Part shown: in pieces, positions 43,200 to 49,970 of the stretch | Layout: each line of letters begins with the position of its first letter | How positions within the stretch are numbered: the stretch's first letter is position 1 | From: Alphaproteobacteria bacterium GM202ARS2 | GTDB lineage: Bacteria; Pseudomonadota; Alphaproteobacteria; GM7ARS4 | DNA: 64,000 nucleotides | NCBI GenBank assembly: GCA_014323835.1 | Contig: JACONH010000004.1 | Span: 1-64,000, forward strand | Direction of reading: 5' to 3' | The notes under the pieces: model-generated | The model's input: the letters and a program-made list of their open reading frames with translations, nothing else | Database searches by the model: none | Told to the model about the DNA's origin: nothing | Position numbers and translations under genes: made by a program

Positions 43200-43278
43200 G
43201 GGCTACGCAAGAAAAAATTGATACGTCTTAAATCTCGGGCTTGGTAGAATCGTGACGCGTTCTGTGCTAGAGAAAGCC

Positions 43279-44427
43279 ATGACCCCCGTCCCTGCTCCTG
43301 CCTTCCTTTTTTTGACTATGGTTCGTTTTTTCACTGCCCTGTTTCTGTTTCTGTTTGTTTTTGTGTGTGGCGTGTTTTCTGTGCGCGCCCAGACATCAGA
43401 GACCAGCTACGTTGTGCCTGATGTGATTGTTAATCTGGCGGCGGGTAGTGTTGAGTCGGCGAGGCGGGAAGCCTTGCTGAAAACCCGTGCTGATGCCTTT
43501 TATCGCTTGCTTCATGCCTTGACTCTGAAAGAAGATCACTCGCGCCTGCCGCAACTGGCATCGTCCGACGTCCGCCTGTTCGCCGAGGGAGTCGATGTAG
43601 ACGAAGAGGGATTCACCCAAGACAGCTATTACGCCAAAATGAGCTGGCGTTACGATAAAAAACTCATCCGTGAGCTGTTGGAGCATCTCAACATTCCTTT
43701 TGTCGGCGGATTCGTTGGCAGAGTCGTTATTCTGCCCATTTACACGCAAGCGGGCATCTCGATTCTGTGGGACGACAGCAACCCGTGGCTCGGTGCGTGG
43801 CGGCAGTTGCCGGTGCTCTCGCCCTTTTATAGCCCGTATATCCCTGAGACAGGGCCCTCTCTGCCGTCTTCCCGTGACGGGCGTTATTTTGATTCCCTTG
43901 CTCGCCTTGCCGCCGACCAGAAGGCTCAGCGTCTCGTCATTGCTATTGCTCAACCGACATTCGATAAGAAGGGGCAGATGAATTTGCTCAACATAGAAGG
44001 GGGCGAATACCAGTTTCCGTCTCGTTTGCCACCAGATTACTTTTCGCTGTTTATTTCTCGGCAACCCAAAGAAAGTGAAGAGCAGATGCTCACCCGCGCT
44101 GCCGAAAAAACACGAGACTACCTCGAACAACGGTGGAAAGAACGCAACCTCGTGCGTTTTGACGAAGAAAAAATTGTCGGCGATATCGTCATCAAAGTCC
44201 TCTATGGTGGCTTCGCCGACTGGGTCGCCATCAAAAAGAGCCTGCAGCAGAACGCCGCCATCGGCAACATGAAAGTCGCAACCTTGTCTCGAGATCATGC
44301 TATTGTGGAAGCATCCGTTGCCACCAGCATCGATAATCTGCAAAGGCAATTCGCTCAACAAGGCTTGACACTGACCTATGATGACGACCAAAAAACGTGG
44401 CTCCTGCGGGGCAACACCTCGCCCTAA
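43279..44427 (+). CDS. DUF2066 domain protein, secreted
   Basis: About 382 residues from ATG 43279 (AGAGAAAG upstream); a GTG at 43252 and an ATG at 43318 are alternatives, and the last would give a cleaner signal peptide (MVRFFTALFLFLFVFV, cleaved near VRAQT). The mature region has ARREALLKTRADAFYRLL near 70-85 and IPFVGGFVGRVVILPIYT near 140, matching the DUF2066 pattern. It is followed by the CDP-alcohol phosphatidyltransferase gene after 24 bases, a conserved pairing in alphaproteobacteria. Function unknown. Confidence 0.82.
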   Translation: MTPVPAPAFLFLTMVRFFTALFLFLFVFVCGVFSVRAQTSETSYVVPDVIVNLAAGSVESARREALLKTRADAFYRLLHALTLKEDHSRLPQLASSDVRLFAEGVDVDEEGFTQDSYYAKMSWRYDKKLIRELLEHLNIPFVGGFVGRVVILPIYTQAGISILWDDSNPWLGAWRQLPVLSPFYSPYIPETGPSLPSSRDGRYFDSLARLAADQKAQRLVIAIAQPTFDKKGQMNLLNIEGGEYQFPSRLPPDYFSLFISRQPKESEEQMLTRAAEKTRDYLEQRWKERNLVRFDEEKIVGDIVIKVLYGGFADWVAIKKSLQQNAAIGNMKVATLSRDHAIVEASVATSIDNLQRQFAQQGLTLTYDDDQKTWLLRGNTSP

Positions 44428-44451: not shown

Positions 44452-45024
44452 ATGCCTTTGACGTTCTCCGATTCTTTTTGGATTTCTTGTGCCAACGGGA
44501 TTTCATTTGCACGCATCCTCGTTGCCCCACTTATCCTGTGGCTCTTGCTCGAGCAAGACTACATGAGCGCGCTCATCCTCTTCACGACTTCTGCCCTCAG
44601 CGATGCCATCGATGGTTTTCTTGCCCGCCGTGCCAAAACAAAAAACATACTCGGAGTCTACCTCGACCCTCTCGCTGATAAAATTCTGCTGGTCAGCATC
44701 TACATCTTCTGTGGCATCATGGAGTGGTTGCACTTGGGTTTGGTTATCCTCGTGGTCTTCCGAGACACGTTGATTGTCTTGTCCCTCGCCCTCGCTCAGC
44801 TGCTGGATGTGCGTCACGGCGTTATATCACCGACCCTCAGCAGCAAAATCAACACCACCGCGCAAATGTTGCTCGTCCTCATCGTCCTTATCGGACAAGC
44901 AGCCCCCTTCATGAAAGTCAGTCCCCTGTATGGCTTTCCGTTTATTTTTCTACCGTGGATTGTCGCAGCAACAACACTGATTTCAGGTATCCAATACCTG
45001 TGGCTGTGGTGGATTAAGAACTAA
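44452..45024 (+). CDS. CDP-alcohol phosphatidyltransferase (PgsA-like)
   Basis: Integral membrane enzyme of 190 residues transferring a CDP-diacylglycerol phosphatidyl group to an alcohol. The family signature is complete: DAIDGFLARRAKTKNILGVY, then LDPLADK, with the order D-G-x2-A-R-x8-G-x3-D-x3-D near residue 50-75. Four to five membrane segments follow. It could be phosphatidylglycerophosphate synthase or a related synthase; the sequence does not say which. Its stop codon lies in the first unit of the 18-bp repeat. Confidence 0.9.
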   Translation: MPLTFSDSFWISCANGISFARILVAPLILWLLLEQDYMSALILFTTSALSDAIDGFLARRAKTKNILGVYLDPLADKILLVSIYIFCGIMEWLHLGLVILVVFRDTLIVLSLALAQLLDVRHGVISPTLSSKINTTAQMLLVLIVLIGQAAPFMKVSPLYGFPFIFLPWIVAATTLISGIQYLWLWWIKN

Positions 45025-46272: not shown

Positions 46273-47022
46273 ATGGCATCTTTTGATTATCGTCCGTCGG
46301 CAGTCAGCAAACCCCACGTTACTGTTGATCAGGGTCTGCGTCAGCACATGCTACGCATATACAACTACATGGCATCAGGGGTGCTCTTGAGCGGGATTGT
46401 TGCTTGGTTTTCGTTCCAGCAAGCCGTCGTTATGGATCCTACTGGTGCTATCCTTGGTCTGACGGCTTGGGGACAGACGCTCTTTGCTAGCCCGCTGGCT
46501 TTTGTCGTCATGCTCGCACCTCTGGGCTTTATTCTTGCCTTGAGTTTCGGCGTCAATCGTATGCAGGCAAGCACGCTCCAGACCTTGTTCTGGGTGTTCG
46601 CTGGTGTCATGGGCTTGTCGCTGTCGTCCATCTTTATGGTCTATGCTGGCGGCTCCATCGCACGAGTCTTCTTCATTACCGCAGGTGCCTTCGCCGCCCT
46701 CAGCCTATACGGCTACACAACCCGTAAGAACCTCAGCGGTTTCGGCACATTCCTCTTCATGGGGCTCATCGGCTTGGTCCTTGCCAGCGTCGTCAATATT
46801 TTCTTGCAGTCCAGTATGCTCAGCTTCGTCGTTTCCGTCGTGGGTGTGTTGGTCTTCGCCGGCTTGACAGCCTATGATACCCAGAGAATCAAGGAAATGT
46901 ATGATGTCAGCGACTCGCCAGAAATCGCCTCGAAAAAGTCCATCATGGGCGCGCTCAGCCTCTATCTCGACTTCATCAACTTGTTCTTGATGCTGTTACG
47001 GCTGTTCGCAGAAAGACGCTAA
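46273..47022 (+). CDS. Bax inhibitor-1/YccA family membrane protein
   Basis: 249 residues, seven membrane segments. The opening HMLRIYNYMASGVLLSGIVAWF and the C-terminal TAYDTQRIKEMYD (Asp pair that forms the pH-sensitive calcium-leak site) and ALSLYLDFINLFLMLLRL are typical of the LFG/BI-1 family (YbhL-type). AGGAGG lies 8 bases before the ATG. Ends against the hairpin at 47029. Confidence 0.95.
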   Translation: MASFDYRPSAVSKPHVTVDQGLRQHMLRIYNYMASGVLLSGIVAWFSFQQAVVMDPTGAILGLTAWGQTLFASPLAFVVMLAPLGFILALSFGVNRMQASTLQTLFWVFAGVMGLSLSSIFMVYAGGSIARVFFITAGAFAALSLYGYTTRKNLSGFGTFLFMGLIGLVLASVVNIFLQSSMLSFVVSVVGVLVFAGLTAYDTQRIKEMYDVSDSPEIASKKSIMGALSLYLDFINLFLMLLRLFAERR

Positions 47023-47059: not shown

Positions 47060-49585
47060 CTATCGAGCAACGATAAAGCCGAATTTCTCGTAAGGGATTG
47101 TATCGATACGTGCCGCTTGCACATGCCACGTGTGAAAGCGAACGACTGTATGGTCATAGCCCAAAGCTTCTATAGCCGGTAGAAGTCTGTAGTCAAAACT
47201 GATATCAGAGATAAAACCCGTGCCTAAGGCTGTGTCGATTTTTTCTCGCAGAGAAAGACACGATGCCGATGTTTCCACAGGTGCTTGCACAGCGCGGTCT
47301 TGCAACGACTCTCGACAGGCAAGACCCAGCTGGGTAGGCACATAATAGGATACATACGTGACCAACCCCGTTATCTGTTGCGCGCACGCGCGGATAGCAG
47401 GGTCATCGAAATTGGTTGGCGGCGGGAATTCTACGAGGACAGAACGAGGCTTGTGTTCGTCTTGCACCCGCGCTGCGAGAAATGCCCGCAAATGCTCACA
47501 CGCCGCGGGCTGTTTTATGTTTTTGGCATCCAGCCAAAGAGCGCCATCATGATGGGCGACCGACTGCCAGATAGCTTCTAGCTCCAAGCCAATATGGTCT
47601 TGGGGAGGATGATAGACATGAATCGCGCCATCATCCTGCACAACAATATCAATTTCGATACAGTTGGAAGCAAGTAAACCCTTAAGAGCCCGTCCTAAAT
47701 GATTGGCGGCGTGCGTGCAGATTTCTCCATTATCATGTTTGTTCTTCAGCGTTATGTGCTTGGCACCATAAAGGTCGGTGGCAGAATCGTTGACTCGTCT
47801 CGTCGAGGGATACTTGTCGGAAAACGCCTTACTTCCTAGAAAGATAGCCGTTGGCCCAGAGGCTGTGTTTCGAACAGTAATTGCCGGGGGCAACGTGATA
47901 GGAGCAAGGTTCGGGCCCATAGAAAAATTGTCCGATTCGATGGTCATATCAAAAAGAAACGTAAGAATACTAGCAACAGAATCGAGCGTTATCGGTTGTT
48001 TAGCATAAGCAATGTCTCGCAGATGCTTGTATTTGTCTGCAAATTGCTGGCGAGCTGCCGTATTAAAATAGATGAAAAAGGGCACAGTCGCCATCTCAAA
48101 AACAAAACGAGCAGAATCGTGCCCGTGTCCCTCGAAAATGGACTCGCCATGGTCCGAGAAATAAATAAAAATAACAGGCTCTTCTTTAGAAGAAGCATAG
48201 TTTGAAATGATTGTCGTCACACTGTTATCGATATATTTGATGGCGTTATCATACTGGCTATGTCTTTTTTGCAAGCCCTCTTCGGTCGCAGAGCCATAAA
48301 GGGCGGCTCCCGACATGCTACTGATGAGATCCTGCTTACCCATGAGGTCCTGCCACGGCTCTTCCTGTCCTCGCTCTCTTTCACTGCCGTGTCCGGCATA
48401 AGATTGCAGAAAGAGGGCTGTGGTGTCTTTTGTATCCAGCTTGTCTATTTCTTGCACAAAGAACGTCAGATCATCGGGTCGTTCGATCTTAAGAGCCAAA
48501 TTACTGAGAATTGTCGTCTTTTTATCAACAGCCCATTTCTTTTGTGAGGCAGCAACACCAATCACTGAAGAGGCTAAATTCCATGTCCCGGACCTTTCTT
48601 GACTCGATATCCAGATGGTCTCAACGTCTCCCCGGTTAAGAGCATCGATGATGGATAGTCTTTTTCTGGAACGGTGAAACGTTTGGACTTTCCTAGGGTG
48701 GGACGTAGGAGCAAGATCTATCGTCAAAGCTTCCACGAGAGATGGAGTCGTGTGCGTGTGTAACGACAAGGTATGGTGGAAGAGAATAAATCCTTCTTGG
48801 CTTGCCAGCTTAGCCAGCTGGGGAGTCGTCTCCCGCGGATAGCCATAAAGAGACATGTGCAGGGCAGACGTCGATTCACCAATATAGACAATAACACGGC
48901 GGGGGCGATAATCCTCGCGGGAAATGGTAACATCATCGACCTGTAAATTCTCAGTGACGATGGTTCTAATTTTTATATTATCGATAAATAAAGAGTGTAT
49001 TGAATAAACGGTATAGGAAATCCATAGAAGTGCGAGAGAAAAAACAACGTGCCTCACAGCATAAACGTAAACCTGCCGATAGCGGGTAAAAAGATAGAAA
49101 GCCAATCCACCAACGATGAACCAAGTAAGAAATACTTGTATGGGTTTTATCGTAATGACTTTATCGACAGAGATTAAACTGCTGAGAGTCCCAATAAAAA
49201 AGACAGCCTCTTCCCATTTAAATAAGGCTATTTCGGATAGACTGTCGGTACCGATACGCTGAATCCAGTATAAAATATTTCTAAGATAAATGAATGCTAT
49301 GAGACTTAAGGCTATAAGAATAAGAGACATAAGCGTCGGTCTGTTCCGAGCATTGAAGTACGTAAGGGCAAGCATAAAAATGGGTAGAGAAAACAACATG
49401 ATCGGTGCGATGTTCCGTGACTCGTCCGGCAAAACAGGCAAAACAGGCAAAGCAACAAAAATGACAGCTGTCGAGACAGCGACAAGCGCCACGCGTAGCC
49501 ACCGCTTGTTTTTTATGTGCGTAGCACTGACGTTGAAGCAAGCAAGGACGCTGTCCCGCACGTTATGCCAGTCGTTTTTGGTCAT
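47060..49585 (-). CDS. Phosphoethanolamine transferase-like protein with menorin-like C-terminal domain
   Basis: From ATG 49585, 841 residues. Five membrane segments (about 30-195) precede a sulfatase-fold domain: VIVYIGESTSALHMSLYGY near 236 (zinc-binding Glu), HTTPSLVEALT near 285 (candidate nucleophile Thr) and FIYFSDHGESIFEGHGHDS near 485 (metal ligands). This is the EptA layout that transfers phosphoethanolamine to lipid A and releases diacylglycerol. After about residue 605 a second domain shows HAANHLGRALKGLL, EIDIVVQDDG, VYHPPQD and ALWLDAKNI, matching the H-A-x-N, E-x-D, HPP and LDxK motifs of menorin/FAM151 (PLC-like). dgkA lies 4 bases upstream. The fusion is unusual. Confidence 0.8.
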   Translation of the reverse strand: MTKNDWHNVRDSVLACFNVSATHIKNKRWLRVALVAVSTAVIFVALPVLPVLPDESRNIAPIMLFSLPIFMLALTYFNARNRPTLMSLILIALSLIAFIYLRNILYWIQRIGTDSLSEIALFKWEEAVFFIGTLSSLISVDKVITIKPIQVFLTWFIVGGLAFYLFTRYRQVYVYAVRHVVFSLALLWISYTVYSIHSLFIDNIKIRTIVTENLQVDDVTISREDYRPRRVIVYIGESTSALHMSLYGYPRETTPQLAKLASQEGFILFHHTLSLHTHTTPSLVEALTIDLAPTSHPRKVQTFHRSRKRLSIIDALNRGDVETIWISSQERSGTWNLASSVIGVAASQKKWAVDKKTTILSNLALKIERPDDLTFFVQEIDKLDTKDTTALFLQSYAGHGSERERGQEEPWQDLMGKQDLISSMSGAALYGSATEEGLQKRHSQYDNAIKYIDNSVTTIISNYASSKEEPVIFIYFSDHGESIFEGHGHDSARFVFEMATVPFFIYFNTAARQQFADKYKHLRDIAYAKQPITLDSVASILTFLFDMTIESDNFSMGPNLAPITLPPAITVRNTASGPTAIFLGSKAFSDKYPSTRRVNDSATDLYGAKHITLKNKHDNGEICTHAANHLGRALKGLLASNCIEIDIVVQDDGAIHVYHPPQDHIGLELEAIWQSVAHHDGALWLDAKNIKQPAACEHLRAFLAARVQDEHKPRSVLVEFPPPTNFDDPAIRACAQQITGLVTYVSYYVPTQLGLACRESLQDRAVQAPVETSASCLSLREKIDTALGTGFISDISFDYRLLPAIEALGYDHTVVRFHTWHVQAARIDTIPYEKFGFIVAR

Positions 49586-49589
49586 TGTC

Positions 49590-49970
49590 TTAGAATGGCA
49601 GGGGGGATGGCAAGGTGAGACTGTAGATAAAGCCCGCCAAAGCCATACCATAGATGATACTGAGTATCAACGAAGGCACCGCGGCGATGTCTTTGATGTC
49701 TTTAATAGCGTTACTTTTTTTTGGTTCCACCTTATCGCACAGGCGTTCGATGGCGGTGTTCAAACACTCGACAACGAGCATGAGCAAGGCGATGACCAGC
49801 ATAGCAACGGGTAACGCCGCCGCATGGCTGATAACGACAAGAACAAGGCTGAAAACAATGAGAGCCAGCTCTTTTTGGGCTGCCCGCTCCCGAGAGAGAA
49901 GCACAAACAAGCCTCTTAAACTTGCTTGTGTCGCTTGTAACAGCGACTGATTTTTATATTTGGGTGTCAC
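49590..49970 (-). CDS. dgkA: Diacylglycerol kinase
   Basis: Inner-membrane enzyme phosphorylating diacylglycerol to phosphatidate. 126 residues with three membrane segments. ERAAQKELALI near 28 and VVECLNTAIERLCDKVEP near 65-82 are the DgkA signatures. Start is GTG at 49970. It sits 4 bases before the phosphoethanolamine transferase-like gene on the same strand, fitting recycling of the diacylglycerol that such transferases make. Confidence 0.95.
   Translation of the reverse strand: MTPKYKNQSLLQATQASLRGLFVLLSRERAAQKELALIVFSLVLVVISHAAALPVAMLVIALLMLVVECLNTAIERLCDKVEPKKSNAIKDIKDIAAVPSLILSIIYGMALAGFIYSLTLPSPLPF

Follow-up and report, generated by a model that had tools for sequence, protein, structure and literature searches.

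A predicted CptA/EptA-type transferase joined to a GDPD-like domain beside dgkA, and related fusions and gene pairs in other bacteria

The window (the whole stretch of DNA analyzed here, 64,000 nucleotides) carries, directly downstream of the diacylglycerol kinase gene dgkA, a gene that joins what appears to be an EptA/CptA-type membrane transferase to a divergent C-terminal domain of probable GDPD-superfamily descent (Table 1). Catalytic residues are intact in both halves, and relatives of the two are fused or encoded side by side across other lineages. We give about an even chance (roughly 0.5) to the reading that the product is a two-domain inner-membrane enzyme in which a GDPD-superfamily phosphodiesterase acts on the phosphodiester of its CptA/EptA-like partner. 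Both halves fall in known superfamilies, while the architecture and the partnership are new; the same two activities, fused or adjoining in unrelated bacteria, suggest a previously unnoticed working partnership. Surface decoration by EptA-type enzymes influences how well bacteria withstand polymyxins and host peptides and has been treated as one-way; a partner phosphodiesterase that recurs in at least three classes suggests that a third activity has been missed, one that may edit or remove head-group decoration.

Table 1. Features of the dgkA-fusion gene locus, with positions in the window
Feature	Position	Strand	Basis
dgkA, diacylglycerol kinase, directly upstream of the fusion gene	49590..49970	-	Pfam DAGK_prokar, 1.9e-18
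Fusion gene, predicted EptA/CptA-type transferase plus C-terminal GDPD-superfamily domain, 841 aa	47060..49585	-	ORF, translation
Membrane part, residues about 28-190	49016..49504	-	Kyte-Doolittle scan; topology inferred
Catalytic transferase domain (Pfam Sulfatase), residues 231-526	48008..48895	-	Pfam, EptC alignment, invariant columns
Predicted C-terminal GDPD-superfamily (PLC-like) domain, residues about 605-841	47063..47773	-	Leave-window-out profile, GDPD bridge
First catalytic His motif in its short HxxN form (H625-A-A-N628)	47702..47713	-	Alignments
E644-I-D646, metal-ligand motif, invariant across all relatives	47648..47656	-	Alignments
Second catalytic His position (H659 of HPP), not retained in Ghiorsea fusions	47609..47611	-	Alignment
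D686-A-K688 (W-L-D-x-K-N motif; L685 precedes); E-F-N in Ghiorsea fusions	47522..47530	-	Alignment

The transferase half and its gene surroundings

EptA-type enzymes take phosphoethanolamine from phosphatidylethanolamine and pass it, via a Thr intermediate, to periplasm-facing acceptors. The fusion gene reads from an ATG at 49585 as one open frame with no internal stops, and an alternative in-frame ATG lies upstream at 49651. A frameshift or mis-joined frame was ruled out, given the single open frame and the same architecture found independently in Ghiorsea. The gene's own genome (1.83 Mb, 49 contigs, 90.5% complete) contains only this one match. About five hydrophobic segments (residues 28-55, 56-79, 81-108, 127-167, and 172-190 by Kyte-Doolittle) lie ahead of the transferase domain, which matches Pfam Sulfatase PF00884 at E = 1.1e-27 and 97.6 bits (cut-off, 25). 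The top match to this half in the PDB was EptC (5zzu; E = 2.2e-15), and alignment to that structure reveals a complete active-site set: E237, T279 at the nucleophile position, H399, D478, H479, and H489. With its zinc and nucleophile residues complete and both matches strong, the EptA-type sulfatase fold proposed for the N-terminal part in a preliminary description of the locus is borne out, and this half looks, in fold and in residues, like an intact CptA/EptA-type inner-membrane enzyme. Matches to the NCBIfam CptA, EptA, and MCR models all remained below cut-off, the best being CptA (1.8e-25; 89.5 bits versus a cut-off of 404), and because these scores lie so far under the curated cut-offs, the acceptor and even the head group are not fixed. 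EptA, EptB, EptC (CptA), and MCR share with the window protein a membrane N terminus, the Sulfatase domain, the GES motif, the Thr nucleophile, the DHGE motif, and the His ligands, but none of them has its extra C-terminal domain of ∼240 residues.

The dgkA stop codon (49592-49590) is separated from the fusion ATG by 4 bp on the same strand, in agreement with the earlier statement that the gene lies next to dgkA, and the two genes probably form an operon. DgkA recycles the diacylglycerol released by EptA/MCR transferases (PMC12064563, PMC10285318), and a dgkA operon is common to the window gene, mcr-3, and the Vibrio dgkA-eptA arrangement (PMC10285318, PMC12064563). The recycling role that had been proposed for the fusion protein is therefore better given to DgkA (PMC12064563) than to the C-terminal domain, whose role we infer. 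LpxC is encoded in the source genome (4.7e-92), so the organism makes lipid A precursors. The organism belongs to Pseudomonadota and is probably alphaproteobacterial, since the plasmid-borne PntB copies closest to its own are those of Skermanella and Azospirillum. On the far side of the fusion gene, a BI-1 (Bax inhibitor-1 family) gene at 46273-47019 is convergent with it, the stop codons lying ∼38 bp apart. A second lipid-metabolism gene, for a CDP-alcohol phosphatidyltransferase (44452-45021), is found on the opposite strand a few kilobases from the dgkA operon; upstream of it, also on the opposite strand, is a 390-aa ORF (43255-44424) with zero Pfam matches.

Related fusions and gene pairs

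A search of 398 genomes of the phylum with the whole protein recovered proteins of the same architecture, 961 to 964 aa long, in one genus (Ghiorsea/uncultured Zetaproteobacteria), and their C termini align over the full window domain. Fusion to an EptA-like domain is thus present in the window and in genomes G574, G618, and G598, in the last on a short contig. A profile of the Ghiorsea fusions retrieved separate, membrane-anchored domain proteins of 274 to 290 aa from other Ghiorsea, and further profile searches led to a Vibrio-family relative, to an Acinetobacter plasmid protein, and then to a second Vibrio type. All strong relatives found (profile E below about 1e-10) are fused to or directly adjoin an alkaline-phosphatase-superfamily membrane transferase. 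In Ghiorsea genomes G394, G486, and G630 the domain gene stands directly before a gene for an OpgB/LtaS-like phosphoglycerol transferase, which is a neighbor of the domain family there and not the type fused in the window; the two frames overlap by 4 bp in G486 (L077). The partner is EptA-like elsewhere: in G685 and Vibrio sp. THAF191d, two Vibrio lineages, its gene overlaps the domain gene that comes next; in Vibrio G825 and in G647 it lies after the domain gene, and on a 9.6-kb A. baumannii plasmid, NZ_CP053221, before it. The plasmid locus (L085, NZ_CP053221.1, 2342-4624) consists of a phosphoethanolamine transferase gene followed by one for a GDPD-like "hypothetical protein," with an IS5 transposase adjoining. 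The domain profile also found a pair in G009, a small genome of the window's own class, in which the domain gene starts at the end of a Sulfatase-family transferase gene (3.1e-15).

The domain gene of G647 was sought only because its transferase is a close relative; that transferase clusters with the one from G825 in the tree, so the gene amounts to a prediction come true. It is also the only domain gene found next to a transferase among the 20 loci inspected from the transferase search (1/20), and the plasmid EptA neighborhoods H1, H9, and H17 include no domain gene. In the catalytic-domain tree, the window protein and the Ghiorsea fusions form one group (84/77 support, with a long branch) and the gene pairs fall on other branches; on the strength of that grouping, the window and Ghiorsea fusions likely descend from a single fusion event. 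Six weak class matches (L122-L127) were set aside, as they are short segments (E = 1e-4 to 3e-3) that look like ordinary GDPDs, with no transferase found beside them in the stretches examined.

The preliminary description knew of no such combination. Ghiorsea shows that the fusion is not unique, and neither it nor the recurring pair was found in the open-access literature that we searched, an absence that is not proof of novelty. Accounts of EptA/MCR gene neighborhoods in that literature name dgkA and pap2 as helpers, with no phosphodiesterase partner among them. The pairs give context and a likely reaction type to hypothetical proteins, including the one on the small Acinetobacter baumannii plasmid.

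Affinities and catalytic state of the C-terminal domain

As a single-sequence query, the window C terminus has zero matches in Pfam, PDB, plasmids, viral contigs, and genome contigs; the bare domain searched across its own class returned only noise, and profiles built from Zetaproteobacteria/Ghiorsea alone had zero matches in viral contigs. Against a profile of nine relatives built without the window, the C terminus scored 34.6 bits (E = 1.3e-9 among 2,002 sequences), and the best of 2,000 shuffles of it scored 3.8 bits. The score rose to 37.2 bits when fused relatives were left out of the profile; profiles from three or six relatives gave weaker scores, yet above all shuffles, and a 12-relative profile that included GDPD-like members gave 28.1 bits versus 10.8 for the best of 5,000 shuffles. 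Because the leave-window-out score far exceeds that of the best shuffle, the motifs are not due to chance, and a chance motif match was ruled out. We regard the window C terminus, on these profile scores, as a true homologue of a divergent bacterial domain family. The H-A-x-N, E-x-D, HPP, and LDxK motifs that had been picked out earlier are all present, the last of them as L685-D686-A-K688 and the third as H659-P-P.

Homology of the window domain to GDPD is transitive, running from the window to the family, from the family to two of its members, and from these to PF03009. The Pfam GDPD model itself has zero match to the fusion protein (search of its own genome, E ≤ 1). The second Vibrio type (L093), which the family profile matches at 3.3e-16, exceeds the PF03009 cut-off (32.4 versus 23.6 bits) and also matches solved GDPDs (2pz0, 4.6e-5); the G647 relative (P0004) exceeds it as well, at 34.0 bits. 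Most other members carry HxxN in place of the HRG...EN loop, a form shared with spider SMase D and menorin, and family profiles match SMase D structures exactly at the HxxN/ExD segment, at sub-threshold E values of 0.02 to 0.2. For one relative (P0002) the match is to a phospholipase D (9yd8; E = 0.012) and spans the HR, E-x-D, H, and W-x-D-x-K motifs. Since two members pass the GDPD model, two touch Menorin below cut-off, and the profiles touch SMase D, the window domain is best classed as a divergent GDPD-superfamily (PLC-like) phosphodiesterase fold, a cousin to SMase D and menorin. The earlier assignment to a PLC-like family stands on the same two members, through which the domain does align with such a family. 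GDPD (PF03009) and the family have in common E-x-D, a second His, and a K motif; unlike GDPD, the window domain has the short HxxN form, without the HRG...EN loop, and is joined to a membrane transferase. The spider and bacterial GDPD-like SMase D/PLD enzymes (4rw3, 4q6x, 9yd8) share the short HxxN...ExD arrangement and provide the best PDB motif matches, but the similarity is sub-threshold (E = 0.01 to 0.2) and the window form is not a free secreted enzyme.

The same motifs had led to a more specific identification of the domain as menorin/FAM151, and that identification did not hold. Menorin/FAM151 proteins (PF10223) do have HAxN, ExD, HPP, and LDxK and belong to the same PLC-like superfamily (PMC6965129), but these motifs are common to other superfamily members and so are not diagnostic of menorin. 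PF10223 has zero match to the window protein at E ≤ 10 and, across the 398 phylum genomes, none above cut-off, only short sub-threshold matches, some with internal stops. It is the most plausible sub-cut-off Pfam family for just 2 of 10 relatives (L076, E = 0.021; P0002, E = 0.052), and bacterial relatives with this gene context connect to GDPD rather than to menorin. The window domain is bacterial and occurs in a different context, and because its family is bacterial, the remark that such domains are known mainly from animals does not apply. We consider true menorin/FAM151 homology, perhaps by acquisition from an animal host, very improbable; an animal origin was considered and rejected. There is no evidence for menorin as the nearest cousin, and spider SMase D/PLD and GDPD appear equally close or closer. 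The family may link GDPD, SMase D, and the menorin/FAM151 proteins of animals from the bacterial side.

A domain structure model based on an alignment of four sequences has alternating strands and helices at weak confidence (pLDDT, 62.7). Foldseek on this weak model returned nothing below 1e-3, and GDPD 3no3 ranked second by E (4.9e-3) and first by probability (0.99), with a TM of about 0.39. Alignment-free prediction was poor, and its Foldseek matches were generic TIM barrels such as EAL domains.

GDPD-superfamily enzymes cleave phosphodiesters with a metal and two His residues. The window domain retains H625, N628, E644, D646, H659, D686, and K688, and the separate-gene relatives have the same full set, with the HRG form of the first motif in the GDPD-like ones. 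In the Ghiorsea fusions the first His and E-x-D are preserved, but G-S occupies the position of the second His and the W-x-D-x-K motif has become W-x-E-F-N. Their domains may be impaired or altered, and with two active-site positions gone, a non-catalytic role is possible there. Two active-site subtypes occur in one genetic context, HRG...EN (L093, 2990-3799; L099, 3673-4524) versus HxxN (in the window), and their coexistence possibly reflects a transition between subfamilies or separate recruitment.

Possible roles of the partnership

If both halves are active, the transferase half would load Thr279 with a head group, in all likelihood phosphoethanolamine drawn from phosphatidylethanolamine, and then hand this group to an acceptor, a sugar or a lipid, at the periplasmic side; DgkA, encoded alongside, would recycle the leftover diacylglycerol. 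The C-terminal half would be a TIM barrel phosphodiesterase with a Mg/Ca-type H/E-D/H/D-x-K active site, working in the same compartment as the transferase, and would remove or trim the transferred group, placing a writer and an eraser or trimmer in one polypeptide. Orientation toward the periplasm, the substrate, the metal, and the way in which the second reaction runs are all presumed here. Pairing with two transferase subfamilies that use different donors (PE and PG) argues that the domain recognizes a common product type. Against this two-domain reading, linkage speaks for partnership and not for the direction of a reaction, the GDPD link of the window domain runs through relatives, the structure model is weak, and catalysis does not appear to be universal in the fused form. 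A further-reaching form of the reading, held tentatively and at somewhat less than even odds, is that the GDPD-like domain is dedicated to removing or trimming phosphoethanolamine or phosphoglycerol set by the fused or neighboring transferase. If this form is right, decoration of surface lipids or glycans would be reversible or convertible to another form, and the two proteins would constitute a new, recurrent functional module in Pseudomonadota.

The domain might instead have no catalytic activity and serve to bind the acceptor or donor and hold it in place for the transferase, a role that would suit a fusion better than a separate gene and the Ghiorsea fusions, which retain HxxN and ExD without the second His and D-x-K. 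We find this doubtful, since the full H, E, D, H, D, K set is kept in the window and in all separate-gene relatives and is unneeded for binding. It is also unlikely that the domain works on the donor side, cutting phospholipids, lysophospholipids, or glycerophosphodiesters as GDPD or SMase D/PLD enzymes do and helping DgkA to recycle by-products. The GDPD bridge, the SMase D/PLD motif matches, and the operon with dgkA fit such an activity; however, what EptA directly leaves behind is diacylglycerol, a molecule that lacks a phosphodiester, and no dgkA was seen beside the other transferase-domain pairs within the few kilobases inspected. The domain family is rare and patchy and its loci are few (about ten lineages or fewer), as might be expected if linkage were incidental and the fusion a chance joining of two unrelated activities, but this is scarcely credible given a partner transferase at every strong match and given that three classes show fusions as well as pairs, the latter in either gene order, and that two transferase subfamilies (EptA-like and OpgB/LtaS-like) are involved. 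Within the genomes sampled, most members of the family do adjoin such a transferase or are fused to one. Removal or trimming of the transferred group remains the reading that we prefer.

An apparent remnant of the domain family lies at 5373-6072 of L090, a 6-kb Vibrio alginolyticus plasmid (pVAE259, NC_013178.1), with 39.8% identity over two pieces; it has no listed transferase and possibly runs across the record start. The Ghiorsea fusions L041 (355-3237) and L042 (430-3321) have an extra domain of ∼130 residues (residues about 25 to 160), absent from the window protein, that sits between the first membrane helix and the remainder.
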